Source: Spirochaetaceae bacterium (lineage in GTDB: Bacteria > Spirochaetota > Leptospiria > Leptospirales > Leptonemataceae). From it: 64,000 bases of DNA. The position numbers were made by a program, and so were the translations under genes. Shown here piece after piece: positions 34,987-61,025 of the stretch. Positions within the stretch are counted from its first letter, which is position 1. Each line of letters starts with the position of its first letter. The notes beneath the pieces are model-generated. The model was not told the origin of the DNA. It was given only the letters and a program-made list of their open reading frames with translations, and ran no database searches. The DNA lies in assembly GCA_002729885.1 (NCBI GenBank), contig PBUB01000021.1:224451-288450 (forward strand). The letters run 5' to 3'.

Positions 34987-35775
34987 CTACTTTCGCATCC
35001 ATTCGTATTGATTCCCACGTCGATTAACCTGAAGCGAAACGCCATAGGTATCAGACAGATTTTCAGATGTAAGTATCCTTTCTACAGGGCCACTCATCCA
35101 GAATTGTCCCTGCTTTAAAAGCGCTGCATGGGTTGTAAATTCAGGCACTTCCTGTAATCTATGCAGTACAAGAACCGATGCCCGTATTTGTTGCAAAAGT
35201 TCCTGAAGTAAATCCTGGATAGAGAACTGTGCAGCTATATCCAGGCTTTCAAATGGTTCGTCGAGCAGGAGCAACTCCGGTCCCGCTGCAAAAGCTGCAA
35301 TTAAGAGTACCCTTCTTCGCTCACCGGAACTCAGGTGCGAAAACCTTGCAGTAAGAGGTAGTTCCAGACGAAGAAATTCACGAAGCAAGGTTTCCGCTTG
35401 CTGGCGCTGGGGCGTCGTAGGTGTTGAATAAAGAGGGAGCCTGCCGGTGAGACCAAAAAGTACCACATCGAGAATAGTGAGCGATGGATAGTTCTGGGCC
35501 AGGGACTCCGGATCCCTGGTTTCAAAGATGCCAATTCGACGTTGAATGGGAAAAACCGGTGAACCGGGCAGCGAAGTATCGAAGAATCGCATTGTACCGG
35601 CACTGGGCCAGAGCTTCAGGGAAAGGATGGCGAGAAGAGTGCTCTTACCGCTTCCATTGGGTCCAAGAACCACCCAGTGCTCCCCCGGATTTATTTTCCA
35701 GGTCGTTGGCTGCAGCAACTGCGATCCGTTGCGGACTACGGAAACACCGTTGAGTTCAACCAGAGGCTGCTTCAC
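34987..35775 (-). CDS. ABC transporter ATP-binding protein
   Basis: A 262-residue ABC ATPase with Walker A GPNGSGKST, signature LSSGERRR, Walker B LLLLDEPFESLD and switch-type His (VLVLHRLQE). The N-terminal GEHWVVLGPNGSGKST resembles the ModF/YlmA branch. No permease or substrate-binding gene is adjacent. It starts 6 bases after the HDOD gene and is followed by the DUF115 gene, so the three may be co-transcribed. Whether it serves the CcmB permease 5 kb away cannot be told; the resemblance is weak. Confidence 0.88.
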   Translation of the reverse strand: MKQPLVELNGVSVVRNGSQLLQPTTWKINPGEHWVVLGPNGSGKSTLLAILSLKLWPSAGTMRFFDTSLPGSPVFPIQRRIGIFETRDPESLAQNYPSLTILDVVLFGLTGRLPLYSTPTTPQRQQAETLLREFLRLELPLTARFSHLSSGERRRVLLIAAFAAGPELLLLDEPFESLDIAAQFSIQDLLQELLQQIRASVLVLHRLQEVPEFTTHAALLKQGQFWMSGPVERILTSENLSDTYGVSLQVNRRGNQYEWMRK

Positions 35776-40440: not shown

Positions 40441-42249
40441 TCAATCCAGATGTCGGTGCCATTCATAGAGCAATGCAGTGACACTGGCCACAGCATTCAA
40501 TGATTCCAGCCCGGATATAGGAATCCTGAATCGAGTCCCCGGAATGTCTGGTAGCCCCTTACCTTCCTGGCCTACAATAAATACGGGCGATTCCACATTT
40601 TCCAAAAAGCCTATTAGCTCCCTTAATGGCTTCTCACTTCGATGGTCCAGCAGGACGGATGTCTCTGGATCCAGCCCGTTTTCTTTTAGCGCTTCCTGGA
40701 TTTGGTCCAGAGCCGGTCCCTGGAAAAAGGCCATTTTAAGGCAGGTCCCTGAGCTGCTTCGGATCACACCCGGATGAAAAGGAAATACAGATTCTGAAGT
40801 AAGAAGCACTGCATTGATCCCAAAGCCACGAGCTGTGCGCACCGCAGCTCCGAGGTTATCCGGCAAAGACAGTGGAAGAACCAGCATGGATTTCCCCGCC
40901 GGCTGGAGAGCAGATACGGACCTTATTTTTTCATGGCCGTCCAGGTTCCATAGAATCAGTGGATACTTTGTTCCGGAAAGATCCAGTCTGCGAAACAGCT
41001 CCGTCTTGAGTCTGAATACAGGTAGCTCGGGCCATCGGGATAGCAGAGAAAAAAGCTCCGGGGGTATAGAATCATAAATTAGCAGGGCTTCGGGATAACC
41101 GTTCCATTGGTCTGCCTCCGTGCCTTCGGAATTGGATGGGTGGCGAGAGATGTCCTGATTTTCGTCGGGCTTATGTTCGGGGGATTGTTGCGTAATCTGC
41201 GTCGGGGCCCGCCAATCATTCAGTATTTCGGGTACGATCTTTCTGCCAGATACCAGTGTCTGGCCGGTCTTTTTGATCCATTTGCTTTGGTCCAGCCTAG
41301 CCCAGTCTTTGAATTTCGGATTCGCATCGGATTCTATGGTTCGGATTCGGCTCTGCAAAGAAGAAGGCACTCCATGGCGATCCGAAAGAGCGATTTCATG
41401 TACAGGCTCATCTCTTCGATGATCTCGTGAAAATCCGAGTTCCTGTTCAGAGCCAGAATTCAGATCTGAATGTTGATCTGAATTCTGAGGGGAAGCCAGG
41501 TAAGGGGAATCTGGATCCCCTCCCTCGGAGAGCGCTCCCGTCTGATATTCCTCTTTGTGCTTCTGCATGGTACGGACGGCTTGAAATCTTTCCTCTTCCA
41601 GTCTTTGAAAAACTACCAGCCGCCTCTTATCGGCAGTGCCCGGTAATCGATAATCGATGGTCTTAAGGTGCCTCCAGGCAGAACAGTAGGCCTCTGCGTG
41701 ACGGATTTCATCGTCACAATCAGGACCCTTCCAGAAAATAAAAAGTCCTCCCGGGTTCACGCTCAGATTGCACAGGTCCAGAGTCTCTGGAATCGACATA
41801 AAGGCCCGGCTGATGGCGCTGTTACATTCAATCCGATCCGCCGAGTTGAGCTTTCTTGAGATCACCTCAACATTTGTGAGACCCAGATGTTCGGCCACAT
41901 CACTCAAAAACTCTGTGCGCTTTCTGCGACCTTCAACCAATCGAAAGACGATTTCCGGACGAAGTATGGCCAGTGGGATTCCGGGAAATCCACCGCCACT
42001 GCCCAGATCCATACATGGACTGCTTAGATCCAGTCCCGCGTCCCGCAGAAGCTTCTCCGGCAGCAGACTGTCCACATAGTGCTTTCGGCCCATGGCATCC
42101 GCCCCGTACAGCCTGGTCACGTTGATTCTTTCATTTTCCTTTCTCAACATACCATGAAAGAGCTGCAGCTTTTTCAGCTTATCCGCCGATACCTTAAGGG
42201 AGGCTTCCTGAAGATATTCAGCAATATTTAGATGTTCGATTGGGTCCAT
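40441..42249 (-). CDS. Fusion of RsmG-like and SpoU/TrmH-like RNA methyltransferases
   Basis: From Met at 42249 the product is 602 residues. The N-terminal 215 are a full RsmG domain (MDLGSGGGFPGIPLAIL, LVEGRRKRTEFL, AISRAFMSIPETL), matching 16S rRNA G527 methyltransferases better than the rsmG next to parA. After a low-complexity linker of about 170 residues, the C-terminal 200 residues form a SpoU domain: DNLGAAVRTARGFG, SSSGTCLK, VFIVGQEGKGLPD and IPISGLESLNAVASVTALLYEW. The two activities would modify rRNA or tRNA on different atoms. A 13-bp inverted repeat lies in the linker. Its start overlaps the divergent gene by 18 bases. Confidence 0.85.
   Translation of the reverse strand: MDPIEHLNIAEYLQEASLKVSADKLKKLQLFHGMLRKENERINVTRLYGADAMGRKHYVDSLLPEKLLRDAGLDLSSPCMDLGSGGGFPGIPLAILRPEIVFRLVEGRRKRTEFLSDVAEHLGLTNVEVISRKLNSADRIECNSAISRAFMSIPETLDLCNLSVNPGGLFIFWKGPDCDDEIRHAEAYCSAWRHLKTIDYRLPGTADKRRLVVFQRLEEERFQAVRTMQKHKEEYQTGALSEGGDPDSPYLASPQNSDQHSDLNSGSEQELGFSRDHRRDEPVHEIALSDRHGVPSSLQSRIRTIESDANPKFKDWARLDQSKWIKKTGQTLVSGRKIVPEILNDWRAPTQITQQSPEHKPDENQDISRHPSNSEGTEADQWNGYPEALLIYDSIPPELFSLLSRWPELPVFRLKTELFRRLDLSGTKYPLILWNLDGHEKIRSVSALQPAGKSMLVLPLSLPDNLGAAVRTARGFGINAVLLTSESVFPFHPGVIRSSSGTCLKMAFFQGPALDQIQEALKENGLDPETSVLLDHRSEKPLRELIGFLENVESPVFIVGQEGKGLPDIPGTRFRIPISGLESLNAVASVTALLYEWHRHLD
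41454..41487. repeat. Perfect 13-bp inverted repeat inside a linker
   Basis: CAGAATTCAGATC (41454-41466) and GATCTGAATTCTG (41475-41487) form a perfect stem with an 8-base loop in the linker of the RsmG-SpoU gene. Confidence 0.6.
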
Positions 42250-43389
42250 TTTCAATATCCAGCCCGCATTTTCCTGGAGAAAGGCTCCACCCATAAGATT
42301 GGGTCGGTGGTCAAGGATCTGGGATCCCGGGTTCTACTGCTCGTTCTGCAAAACGAACAATACAATCCAGATGAACTGGCTATCATTAAGACCAGTCTGG
42401 AGCGCTATACCAGTGGCTGCATCATTTATGACGATCTTGAAAAACGCCCCGGTTTTGACGAGTTGGATACGGCTGCTCATTTCATAAAACAGAGTCGTGC
42501 GGATCTAATTCTGGCATACGGAGGGCGGGATACTTTTCACACAGCCCGTGCTGTAGCCCTATTGGCCACCAACGAAGTCTTCGCCAAGGAGCTCCCCGAG
42601 CGTAGAGAGCCATTGAAAAGGCCACCCATGCCGGTTATTACTGTGCCTGGTGTCTTCACCATGGGCGAAGAAAGCTCTCCTACATTTGTAATGTATGACC
42701 ACGCGTCCGGGGAGCTCTACCATGGAAATGATCCCAGATTGTTTCCCGCTGCAGTGTTTATGGACCCGGCCATTACCATGGCCATGTCTGAAGCCGAAAT
42801 TACGCGCACCGGTGTAGCCATTCTTGCAGCTGCGGTGGAGGCTATTCTTTCCAAGAGGGCTAACGATCTGAGCAATTCTATGGCTCTGAGAGCTATCGAA
42901 TTGATTATGCGATCACTTCAGAACCTGGTGAAGGACACATCCAACCAGAATGCGAGAAACAACATCAGCGTCGCGAATCTTCTGTGCGGTGTATCTCATT
43001 CTAACAGCTGGCTGGGCCTTTGCTACAGCATCGCAACAGCCACAAATCTTATTACCGGTATGGACTTTATGATGGCCATGGCCATTCTCCTGCCGCATGT
43101 TATGGAATATAATCTCACAACTTCTGCAGGAAAATATGTGCAGATTGCCCGAGCTCTGGAAGAGGACATCCATGATATCACTGTAATTGAGGCCGCGATC
43201 AAGGCTGTGGAAGGTGTAAGAAAGCTCTATCTGGACTTAAAGGTACCCCAGAGACTATCGGATTTCGAAGTAGATAAGGCGTTGCTTCCTGAAATCGCAG
43301 GCATGGCCTCTGCCTTTCCACTGATCAAAAACACTCCTCGAGAACTGGACCAAAACGAAATCGAAACCATTCTCATTGCAGCGTATTGA
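42232..43389 (+). CDS. Iron-ADH-fold protein lacking all metal ligands (probable pseudoenzyme)
   Basis: The 385 residues follow the iron-containing alcohol dehydrogenase fold from start (WVHFQYPARIFLEKGS) to AILLPHVMEYN. The four metal ligands of FucO-like enzymes (Asp196, His200, His263, His277) correspond here to Ala196, Ala200, Tyr265 and Phe279, and the NAD-binding GGGSxxD is changed to YGGRDTFH. It therefore probably does not oxidise alcohols; it may bind a metabolite or act as a partner. The ATG has no ribosome-binding site, but the start fits the family. Its first 18 bases overlap the start of the divergent RsmG-SpoU gene. Confidence 0.8.
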   Translation: MFDWVHFQYPARIFLEKGSTHKIGSVVKDLGSRVLLLVLQNEQYNPDELAIIKTSLERYTSGCIIYDDLEKRPGFDELDTAAHFIKQSRADLILAYGGRDTFHTARAVALLATNEVFAKELPERREPLKRPPMPVITVPGVFTMGEESSPTFVMYDHASGELYHGNDPRLFPAAVFMDPAITMAMSEAEITRTGVAILAAAVEAILSKRANDLSNSMALRAIELIMRSLQNLVKDTSNQNARNNISVANLLCGVSHSNSWLGLCYSIATATNLITGMDFMMAMAILLPHVMEYNLTTSAGKYVQIARALEEDIHDITVIEAAIKAVEGVRKLYLDLKVPQRLSDFEVDKALLPEIAGMASAFPLIKNTPRELDQNEIETILIAAY

Positions 43390-57876: not shown

Positions 57877-60189
57877 ATGACCGAAACTGAATTCAGTATG
57901 CACAAGAATTTGATCATCATCGGTGCAGGCGCCCTGCAGGTGCCTTTGATTGAAGCCGCTCGGTCCATGGATGTAAATCCCATTGTATTCGATATGGATT
58001 CCGAGGCCCCGGGGCGGGCTCTGGCATCGCGCTTTGTTCAAATGAGTACCCGGGATATCGAAGGCTGCGTGCGTGAAGCCAAGCGGCTCAGTCAGGAAAT
58101 TAAGATTCATGGCGTAATTACAGCCGGTACCGATGCATCCCGTGCTGTATCGGCCATTGCTGCGGCCCTGGAATTGCCAGGCATTCGTTATAGCGATGCT
58201 GAAGCTGCTTCCAACAAGGTTCTTATGCGAAAGCGCCTCAGAAAGGCTGGCGTACCGGTTCCGGATTTCTTTCCGGTCTGGAACCTGAAAGAAGCTAGAG
58301 ATGGTCTGGATGAGCTGGGATGTCCTGCGGTGTTGAAGCCTGCTGAAAATATGGGGGCCCGGGGAGTAATCAAGATCCGTCATCGATCCGAGTTGGCGGC
58401 TGCCTACAGGCATTCAAAAAAGCACAGCACCACCGGAGAAATGATTCTGGAAGAGTACATGGATGGTCCTGAACTTTCGGTGGATGCGCTGACTTTCGAA
58501 GGGCAGTACTGGATTACCGGCATAGCGGACCGCATCATTGATCGAGAGCCGTATTTTATTGAACGGGGGCATAACATGCCCTCGGCAATGAATTCAGATA
58601 TTCTCGCAGAAGTCAAACATGTGATGATCGCCGGAATGAAAGCTCTTGGAATTCACACTGGTGCGGGCAAGGGAGATATCAAAGTTACTTCTACTGGTGT
58701 TAAGATCGGCGAACTGGCTGCCCGGCTGTCTGGCGGATGGATGTCGTCGCATACCTTTCCTTTGCACAGTGGCATTAATCTATACCGGGCTGCTATTAGT
58801 ATTGCACTGGGCGAAAACCCGGGGGATCTACAGCCGGTGCAGAATCGAATCGTAATCGAGCGTGGACTCTTTTCTCCCGCCGGTAAAATTGTCTCTCTGG
58901 GCGGTGTCGATGCGATGAAATCAGTGCTTGGCGTAGAAGAAGTAATCCTGACAAAGAAGCCGGGCAACATTATGCAGGAGCTTACCAGCAACATCGACAA
59001 GGTCGGTCACATTATCGCATCCGGTGATACGCTGGAAAAAGCAGAGCAATCCGCCGAGCAGGCTCGCAAACTATTTGAACTGGAAGTGGACGAAACTGCA
59101 GGTATTGACTGGGGCCTGGTGGAAGAAAGGGCCAGGGAGAGATTTTCCGAACAGGTCTGCTGGGTCTGCAAATCCTGTGATGGAAAAAACTGTGCCAGCG
59201 GCGTTCCGGGAATGGGTGGCACTGGATCCCAAAAAAGTTTCCAGGACAATTCCGATGCTCTGGCTGAATGGAGAATCGTGCCGAGCTATGTGCGACATTC
59301 TGTAGAGGCGGATTCCGGTATTGAACTATTTGGCCGGCACTTTGAACATCCGGTATTGGGGGCTCCGATGACCGGAGCGGGTACAAACCTGAAAGAAGCG
59401 CTCAGCGAATCTGAACTTTCTCTTGGTATGTTAAGAGCCTATAGAGAGGCAGGCAGCGTGGCCTTTTTGGGGGATGGAGCGTCCCTGGGTAAATTTCCAG
59501 TAATTCTGGATGCTCTTGAGCAGGAGGAAGGCTTTGGAGTGCTCATATGTAAACCCAGAGAAGACACGGAAGAAATTATTCAACGTATGAATCAGGCTCT
59601 GGAGCGAGGGGTGCTGGCCGTGGGTATGGACATCGATGCGCTGGCTTTTCGCACACTGCATCTTCGGGGTCAGAAAGGCCTGGCCAGACCCTCCGAAGAC
59701 ATCGCAAAGATTCGAGATCGTATCCAGGCACCGTTCATTTTAAAGGGCATCCTGAATGTAAGAGATGCTATTGCTGCAGCGGTGGCAGGTGTAGATTACA
59801 TCGTGGTGTCGAATCATGGAGGTCGAGTACTGGATGAAGCTCCCGGAGCGGCCCGGGTCCTTTCTGAAGTAAGGCAGGCCTGGATCGATAATGGGGGATC
59901 GCCGGATGGAGTTCTGGCTGATGGTGGCGTCCGATCAGGTGCGGATGCATTCAAGTATCTGGGTCTGGGGGCTCGAGCAGTACTGGTAGGTCGACCATCG
60001 GTTATCGCGCTGGCCGGTGGTGGACCGGTGGCACTTCGGTACATGATACATCAATATGCGCGAGAGCTCAGGGAAACGATGCACCTTTGTGGTGTGTCCA
60101 GTGTGATGGAAGTTCCGGAGAAGGGTGTGCTTCAGCTGGCAACCATGGGAGATGGACCGTCCGGGGCATCGCTGTTCAAGAAGTCCTGA
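57877..60189 (+). CDS. ATP-grasp ligase fused to an FMN-dependent alpha-hydroxy-acid dehydrogenase
   Basis: The 770-residue protein has two enzymes in one chain. Residues ~10-395 are ATP-grasp of the carbamoyl-phosphate/PurK type: an N-terminal Rossmann-like IIIGAGALQVPLIEAA, PAVLKPAENMGARGV, MILEEYMDGPELSVDALTF and DIKVTSTGVKIGELAARLSGG. Residues ~428-439 form C-W-V-C-K-S-C-D-G-K-N-C, then PGMGG. The rest (~450-770) is an FMN_dh barrel with VVSNHGGRVLDEAPG and DGGVRSGADAFKYLG...AVLVGRP. The four Cys precede PGMGG as in clostridial alpha-hydroxy-acid oxidising proteins. GGGGA lies five bases before the ATG. It overlaps convergent lipB by 58 bases. Confidence 0.85.
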   Translation: MTETEFSMHKNLIIIGAGALQVPLIEAARSMDVNPIVFDMDSEAPGRALASRFVQMSTRDIEGCVREAKRLSQEIKIHGVITAGTDASRAVSAIAAALELPGIRYSDAEAASNKVLMRKRLRKAGVPVPDFFPVWNLKEARDGLDELGCPAVLKPAENMGARGVIKIRHRSELAAAYRHSKKHSTTGEMILEEYMDGPELSVDALTFEGQYWITGIADRIIDREPYFIERGHNMPSAMNSDILAEVKHVMIAGMKALGIHTGAGKGDIKVTSTGVKIGELAARLSGGWMSSHTFPLHSGINLYRAAISIALGENPGDLQPVQNRIVIERGLFSPAGKIVSLGGVDAMKSVLGVEEVILTKKPGNIMQELTSNIDKVGHIIASGDTLEKAEQSAEQARKLFELEVDETAGIDWGLVEERARERFSEQVCWVCKSCDGKNCASGVPGMGGTGSQKSFQDNSDALAEWRIVPSYVRHSVEADSGIELFGRHFEHPVLGAPMTGAGTNLKEALSESELSLGMLRAYREAGSVAFLGDGASLGKFPVILDALEQEEGFGVLICKPREDTEEIIQRMNQALERGVLAVGMDIDALAFRTLHLRGQKGLARPSEDIAKIRDRIQAPFILKGILNVRDAIAAAVAGVDYIVVSNHGGRVLDEAPGAARVLSEVRQAWIDNGGSPDGVLADGGVRSGADAFKYLGLGARAVLVGRPSVIALAGGGPVALRYMIHQYARELRETMHLCGVSSVMEVPEKGVLQLATMGDGPSGASLFKKS

Positions 60190-60788
60190 AATGCAGCCGC
60201 CCATCGATCTGCCAGACTGCGAAGATTGATGGGTTTTCCGGTGATCTGACGAACACTTCCAGGTTCAAACTGATTCAGTCCGCAGGCGACGATGTTTTGA
60301 AAGGTGCTCAGGTCGTTGTTCACATTGATGGCCACGCCGGAGGAGGTGAAGAAGCTACGTGCTTCCACGCCAATGGCGCAGACCTTGCGATTCCCGTGAT
60401 ACAGTCCGGGGTAATCTGAATTAATGCTCAATTCCACCCCCGTCTCGTCGCGTACGGCGGTAGCTGAAATCGAAAGCAAGGCCTTGAAGAAATCGGACAG
60501 CGAAAGCTTTCTGGCTTTTAAATCTATGTGCGGATACACAACCAATTGTCCTGGTTCATGAGCCGTCAAATCTCCGCCTCGCTTGATGGGAATGAGTGGA
60601 ATACCTACCTGCTGCAGATCTTCATGCTTCCTCAGAAGGTTACCCTCCTTCCACTGTATTCCACCGGTAATTGTGGGCGGATGCTGGCAAAACAAGAGCA
60701 GTTCCTGTCGACTGGAGCGCAGTTCCTCCTGCCGCTTTTGATAGTGGCTGTACGGTAGTAATTCTTCTCGATACTCAATTGCCATCAT
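60132..60788 (-). CDS. lipB: Octanoyltransferase LipB
   Basis: LipB moves octanoate from acyl carrier protein to lipoyl domains. RGGDLTAHEPGQLVVYP, the catalytic Lys in RKVCAIGVEAR, and the catalytic Cys in NIVACGLNQFEPGS are all present. The frame opens with TTG at 60815, but the ATG pair at 60788/60785 is the more likely start (about 218 residues). Its 3' 58 bases overlap the ATP-grasp/FMN gene tail to tail. lipA is not in the window. Confidence 0.93.
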   Translation of the reverse strand: MMAIEYREELLPYSHYQKRQEELRSSRQELLLFCQHPPTITGGIQWKEGNLLRKHEDLQQVGIPLIPIKRGGDLTAHEPGQLVVYPHIDLKARKLSLSDFFKALLSISATAVRDETGVELSINSDYPGLYHGNRKVCAIGVEARSFFTSSGVAINVNNDLSTFQNIVACGLNQFEPGSVRQITGKPINLRSLADRWAAAFQDFLNSDAPDGPSPMVAS

Positions 60789-61025
60789 ACTTTTCCAGAT
60801 GCGAGGGCTACGCAATAAAACAGAATGCTTCAGCCGAAAACATGGAAACTCTCCCGGTTCAATTTGCCTCTAAAACGCGACGGAAGCCACGGGCCTTCAA
60901 CCGAAACGAATCCATTGGTGGCTCTTATCTGCCACCAATGCAGGCTTGCACTCCAGTATCCAATGCTGTTCGAAAACTCAGCAAATTTCAACCTTAAAAT
61001 TGTTCCCGGACAGGCGGGATTAGAG

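Follow-up and report, generated by a model that had tools for sequence, protein, structure and literature searches.

We begin by asking what kind of enzyme is encoded by a gene in which an ATP-grasp ligase and an FMN-dependent dehydrogenase share a single chain. The gene lies in a 64,000-nucleotide stretch of DNA from a Spirochaetaceae bacterium, and the whole of this stretch is referred to here as the window. The reading that we favor, with a probability of roughly 0.6, is that the fusion acts in the biosynthesis of the flagellin glycan (nonulosonic acid), a general contribution of its redox half included.

Architecture of the fused protein and its relatives

The gene reads from an ATG through its stop codon with no internal stops, and its product matches the Pfam families ATP-grasp_4 (59.3 bits against a cut-off of 27), LAL_C2 (68.8 against 29.4) and FMN_dh (190.8 against 24.9). 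The elements that a preliminary description of the locus had listed, namely an ATP-grasp unit, four spaced cysteines, PGMGG (residues 444-448, after the cysteine cluster and before the barrel), SNHGGR and an FMN_dh barrel, are all recovered by the ORF reading and the Pfam scan (Table 1), and both domains belong to one protein. The AlphaFold model of the fusion (48 sequences) has a mean pLDDT of 91.8 and a pTM of 0.77, with the cysteine linker as its least certain inner part (block-mean pLDDT about 59-79). The final ~20 residues are of low confidence and are absent from most homologues. At its 3' end the gene overlaps the convergent lipB ORF (60132-60815, minus strand) by 58 bases (60132-60189).

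Table 1. Features of the fusion gene and of a Maf/MptE-like gene, in window coordinates
Feature	Position	Strand	Basis
ATP-grasp/Cys4/FMN_dh fusion gene, 770 aa	57877..60189	+	ORF reading, Pfam, relatives
ATP-grasp ligase half, residues 9-405	57901..59091	+	Pfam; fold match to 3vot/4dim; 49 conserved columns shared with the flagellar-cluster enzyme of Treponema
LAL_C2, residues 331-404	58867..59088	+	Pfam
C428-x2-C431-x2-C434-x4-C439 cluster, putative Fe-S site	59158..59193	+	Present in 73/79 homologues
FMN-dependent alpha-hydroxy-acid dehydrogenase-type barrel, residues 450-750	59224..60126	+	Pfam FMN_dh; profile match to glycolate/lactate oxidases
SNHGGR active-site motif, residues 645-650	59809..59826	+	Homologue alignment
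Candidate flagellin glycosyltransferase gene of the Maf/MptE-like type (PF01973), 646 aa	33105..35045	-	

Is the joining of the two domains genuine? A frameshift or an assembly error, which the preliminary description had held up as a possible cause, is ruled out by the intact full-length ORF, by the fused relatives and by public genomes of several phyla. Most of 61 relatives (35-86% identity) have the full-length fused form. According to the names in public records, the fusions come from the Spirochaetota (Leptospiraceae, Turneriella, Brachyspira, Brevinematales and others), the Nitrospinota, the Hydrogenedentota and one unclassified bacterium; the fusion is not rare. Among flagellated spirochaetes other than Borrelia and Spirochaetales, the fusion is near-universal. 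It had been allowed that the fusion might be both common and already described: common it is, and our literature search for ATP-grasp plus FMN_dh fusions found no paper describing it.

The two halves also occur separately, and only four changes of architecture are needed on the tree of the ATP-grasp half. The ATP-grasp and the Cys-FMN_dh are two separate genes in G054, while in Treponema and other Spirochaetales the ATP-grasp has a C-terminal domain of ~130 aa instead of the FMN barrel. This domain has no match to any Pfam family; in one locus (L090, 7971-9572, plus strand, residues ~410-534) it contains the motif FWxALxRGGxQGAxYxxD and folds with high predicted confidence. The Cys-FMN_dh stands alone in Clostridia (L106, L113) and in a Desulfonatronospira record (L121), where the gene neighbors are inconsistent and a matching ATP-grasp is absent from the genomes. 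The two clostridial proteins do begin with the four cysteines and PGMGG, as the preliminary description had stated.

By fold and profile, the fusion is predicted to belong to the ATP-grasp carboxylate-amine ligase superfamily. A fold search matches its first half to the L-amino acid ligase 3vot (TMt of 0.87) and to 4dim. An alignment of the fused with the Treponema/Spirochaetales type has 49 ATP-grasp columns with a conservation of at least 95% in each, and none separates the one type from the other; K154, E192, D267, E279 and R283 are kept on both sides. Signature columns are shared by the nearest solved paralogues in only 18 of 45 cases (BL00235) and 19 of 49 cases.

The second half matches glycolate and lactate oxidases in a profile search. 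Among 79 aligned homologues, K623 is kept in all, H647 in 69 and R650 in 73; all four cysteines are kept in 73. The six proteins that lack them come from Brachyspira and G055, and the active-site H and R are missing from exactly these six as well. Because these residues are lost in the same six proteins, the cysteine cluster appears to be tied to the FMN chemistry, and the joint loss supports a redox role for this putative metal-binding cluster, which is probably a [4Fe-4S] site. In these six fusions (L068, L071, L072, L075, L080, L027) the barrel is kept and the four cysteines and HGGR are lost. The Brachyspira-type genomes (family f14) also have a separate, intact Cys-FMN_dh gene. Four other proteins (L020, L062, L063, L066) have SNRGGR, with the active-site His changed to Arg, though their cysteine cluster is retained. 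When the profile is aligned to 5zbm, the Tyr that serves the active site of glycolate oxidase lands in an insertion and has no equivalent, so the substrate may be unusual. We infer the chemistry of the FMN domain in the fusion. To the ligase, however, the barrel is not essential, because it is absent in Spirochaetales, degenerate in Brachyspira and altered from His to Arg in the four proteins.

Co-occurrence with flagellin and gene neighborhoods

We compare the occurrence of the ATP-grasp ligase with that of flagellin in 247 genomes of the phylum, each at least 90% complete, with the overlaps counted by hand from two lists. Flagellin is absent from 17 of the 247 (family f44 and genus g79 of family f40). 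The ligase is found in none of these 17, which amounts to two separate losses, and it is present in the flagellated genus g116 of f40, the sister of g79. Among the 230 flagellated genomes, 194 have the ligase, or 194 of 197 once family f33 (taken as Borreliaceae) is left out; the 36 without it are 33 genomes of f33 together with G029, G037 and G162. Without f33, the Fisher probability is 2e-22 with kinship ignored, and the independent evidence consists of the two concordant losses. The methyltransferase of the gene cluster described below has the same distribution as the ligase. Outside the spirochaetes, flagellin is found in 12 of the 13 tested genomes that carry either half, the exception (L077) having the ATP-grasp only.

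The unfused ligase of the Spirochaetales lies in a flagellar gene cluster. In the loci read, the usual order is radical-SAM/SPASM, SpsF-like cytidylyltransferase (CTP_transf_3), PseG-like plus methyltransferase, ATP-grasp, amidase_3 and FlaA, with L090 departing from this pattern upstream; representatives of these genes were scanned against Pfam and the remainder recognized by sequence likeness. The radical-SAM/SPASM protein of ~520 aa (L109, 2874-4571, and related loci) belongs to this FlaA/SpsF/PseG-like cluster throughout. Two genomes, G050 and G048, have the same cluster in the same gene order without the ATP-grasp, and their fusion is located elsewhere in the genome. The simplest reading is therefore that the fusion does the job of the missing ATP-grasp, and the 49 shared columns, with none specific to either type, support it. 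In the Maf cluster of L085 a standalone ATP-grasp comes directly after a PseG-like gene, and in L086 and L089 it comes after a gene that is N-terminally similar to that PseG-like gene.

Around the fused gene the picture is more varied. In the window, mnmG is divergent on its left and lipB convergent on its right, and in Leptospirales the fusion sits beside the housekeeping genes mnmG, lipB and mnmA, not in a glycan operon. The remark that no partner genes are adjacent is correct for the window, but partners do adjoin the fusion in other genomes. An HpcH/HpaI-family aldolase gene is next to it in three Nitrospinota loci, in L067 of the Hydrogenedentota and in L058 (the aldolases of L061 and L078 are called by likeness to that of L050, and the L067 match is just under the Pfam cut-off); in L067 an MptE-like (Maf-type) gene is adjacent as well. 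In G049 the fusion is immediately preceded by the methyltransferase gene, and in G056 a PseG-methyltransferase gene lies nearby. The unfused orthologue thus clusters with glycan genes, as does the fusion in G049, G056, L058 and L067, and no such clustering is found in Leptospirales. G000 has one aldolase homologue, as do most Leptospirales and Turneriella-type genomes, and none is found in Brachyspira, most Spirochaetales and many genomes with the fusion. G000 also has two NeuB-domain genes. The Maf/MptE-like gene of the window (Table 1) possibly belongs to the same pathway as the fusion; the distance between the two is 23 kb in the window and 23, 13 and 8 kb in G004, G009 and G005. This gene directly adjoins an ABC ATPase gene (34987-35775).

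Other neighbors have to do with lipoate and RNA modification. Lipoate genes are upstream of the fusion in Turneriella-type genomes (lipB in L023, L026, L041 and L076; lplA in L040 and L074), and tRNA-U34 modification genes are beside it in three lineages (mnmA in L034, L035 and L039; mnmG in the window, L036 and L038; mnmE in L020). Elsewhere in the window, a single ORF (40441-42294, minus strand) matches both RsmG (GidB) and a SpoU rRNA methylase, and two rRNA methyltransferases appear to be fused in it.

A proposed role in flagellin glycan synthesis and its alternatives

Leptospira FlaB1 carries putative glycans, and glycosylation has been proposed there to hold the sheath to the core (PMC13144727). 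In Treponema denticola, glycosylation of FlaB is reported to be essential for filament assembly and motility, and the glycan has a mass of 450.2 Da (PMC9481697). Shewanella flagellin carries a 274-Da nonulosonate with a methylated side group; sfmABCDE combines the genes of a NeuB-like synthase, a TPP enzyme, an SDR and a methyltransferase with that of an ATP-grasp (SfmE), whose deletion shifts the mass of the flagellin (PMC3765264). If a 274-Da unit is taken off the 450.2 Da, the remainder, about 176.07 Da, corresponds in mass to an O-methyl 3-deoxyhexonoyl group (C7H12O5). This arithmetic is suggestive, and the Leptospira glycan may differ. The T. denticola side chain is reportedly a 2-methoxy-4,5,6-trihydroxyhexanoyl group on N7.

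It is fairly likely that the ATP-grasp serves as a flagellar-glycan ligase. That the FMN half tailors the alpha-carbon of the acyl acid is a more tentative idea, one that we consider possible and short of probable. In its most specific form, to which we give clearly less than even odds, the proposal has a bifunctional Fe-S flavoenzyme-ligase that would make (by alpha-carbon redox) and install (by ATP-grasp amidation) an extended sugar-acid acyl group on the flagellin nonulosonic acid, as an acetyl-CoA-independent replacement for PseH. PseH is a GNAT enzyme that uses acetyl-CoA and acylates the 4-amino group before PseG acts.

With the substrates, the order of steps, the identity of the Fe-S cluster and the direction of the redox reaction all inferred, the pathway would run as follows. 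An HpcH/HpaI-type aldolase would form a 2-keto-3-deoxy sugar acid, and the FMN domain would interconvert its alpha-keto and alpha-hydroxy forms, with electrons passing via the four-cysteine cluster. The alpha-hydroxyl may then be O-methylated by a SAM methyltransferase. The ATP-grasp would turn the carboxylate into an acyl phosphate and ligate it to the amino group at the 4-amino (later N7) position of a UDP-amino sugar or of the nonulosonate, in place of the acetylation by PseH. Finally, the PseG-like protein, NulO synthase, cytidylyltransferase and Maf would complete the sugar, which would be placed on flagellin. Starting from pyruvate and glyceraldehyde, exactly the O-methyl 3-deoxyhexonoyl group would result if the aldolase step were followed by reduction of the alpha-keto group, O-methylation and amidation by the ATP-grasp; by analogy with sfmABCDE, one enzyme of the set would form the C-C bond, and a reductase, a methyltransferase and a ligase would complete it. 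The preliminary idea that ligation and oxidation are coupled survives in part: the evidence is best read as both steps belonging to one small-molecule pathway, but the barrel is dispensable, since Treponema has another domain in its place and Brachyspira keeps a degenerate one. Obligate channeling of an unstable intermediate is rejected, since the barrel is dispensable and the ligase occurs alone, in clusters without it.

Several observations speak against a flagellar-glycan role: the Leptospirales gene lies beside mnmG, lipB and mnmA, outside any glycan operon, and the Borreliaceae are flagellated yet do without it. Others bear on the part given to the FMN half, namely the lack of a fused FMN domain in Spirochaetales, its degeneration in Brachyspira, the change of His to Arg in four proteins, the absence of the aldolase from many fusion genomes and the missing counterpart of the glycolate-oxidase Tyr. 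An unlikely alternative keeps the flagellar-glycan ligase and lets the barrel oxidize another intermediate of the pathway, or be structural, without acting on the acyl acid. The ligase does persist where the barrel is absent or degenerate, Brachyspira has its separate intact FMN_dh with the cysteines, and the aldolase is patchily distributed. However, the four cysteines, K623, H647 and R650 are strictly kept in most fusions, and the cysteines, H and R are lost together, as catalysis predicts; an enzyme of alpha-hydroxy/keto acids beside an aldolase and a methyltransferase also suits the acyl acid.

The nearest solved folds, L-amino acid ligases and lactate/glycolate oxidases, would also fit a general enzyme of 2-hydroxy-acid or peptide metabolism (an L-amino-acid-ligase type with a lactate-type dehydrogenase) that is unrelated to flagella, and so would the solitary gene of Leptospirales. 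The tight co-loss with flagellin, the membership of the FlaA cluster in Spirochaetales and the mere 18 of 45 signature columns shared by the BL00235 ligase make this improbable. Very improbable is a part in lipoate or tRNA-U34 modification metabolism, to which lipB in the window, the lipB or lplA genes upstream in Turneriella-type genomes and the mnmG, mnmA or mnmE genes beside the fusion in three lineages might point: the lipoate neighbors are confined to two lineages, mnmG/mnmE sit with parA/parB (f1) in a replication-origin-type cluster, and neither pathway would be expected to disappear with flagella.

If the flagellin-glycan proposal is true in its specific form, an acetyl-CoA-independent replacement for PseH would operate across most spirochaetes and a few other phyla, as a defining step of the spirochaetal flagellar glycan. 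None of the literature that we found names an enzyme responsible for making the spirochaetal acyl-nonulosonate, and a phylum-wide, single-copy candidate with named partner genes makes this question directly testable. ATP-grasp ligases in flagellin modification are already known; the Cys4-FMN_dh fusion and a phylum-wide role were not found described.

How does the fusion compare with known systems? SfmE of Shewanella oneidensis (SO_3265), likened here by description, is likewise an ATP-grasp_4 protein, and its flagellin nonulosonic-acid operon also codes for a NeuB-like synthase and a SAM methyltransferase; it has no FMN domain, however, and the operon supplies a TPP enzyme and an SDR in its place. 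PseH, in the synthesis of pseudaminic acid, would by analogy hold the same pathway position as the fusion ligase, with the difference that PseH uses acetyl-CoA and the ATP-grasp would use the free acid. The L-amino acid ligase BL00235 (3vot) and the Anaerococcus ATP-grasp (4dim) are the best solved relatives in sequence and fold, yet they show only about 20-23% identity and share less than half of the family's signature columns. The standalone Cys-PGMGG proteins (L106, L113, L121) have the same four-cysteine and PGMGG start, and the glycolate and lactate oxidases have the same active-site K, H and R as the fusion barrel; this barrel differs from FMN-dependent alpha-hydroxy-acid oxidases in having no equivalent of their catalytic Tyr in the alignment, and from both groups in being joined to a ligase.
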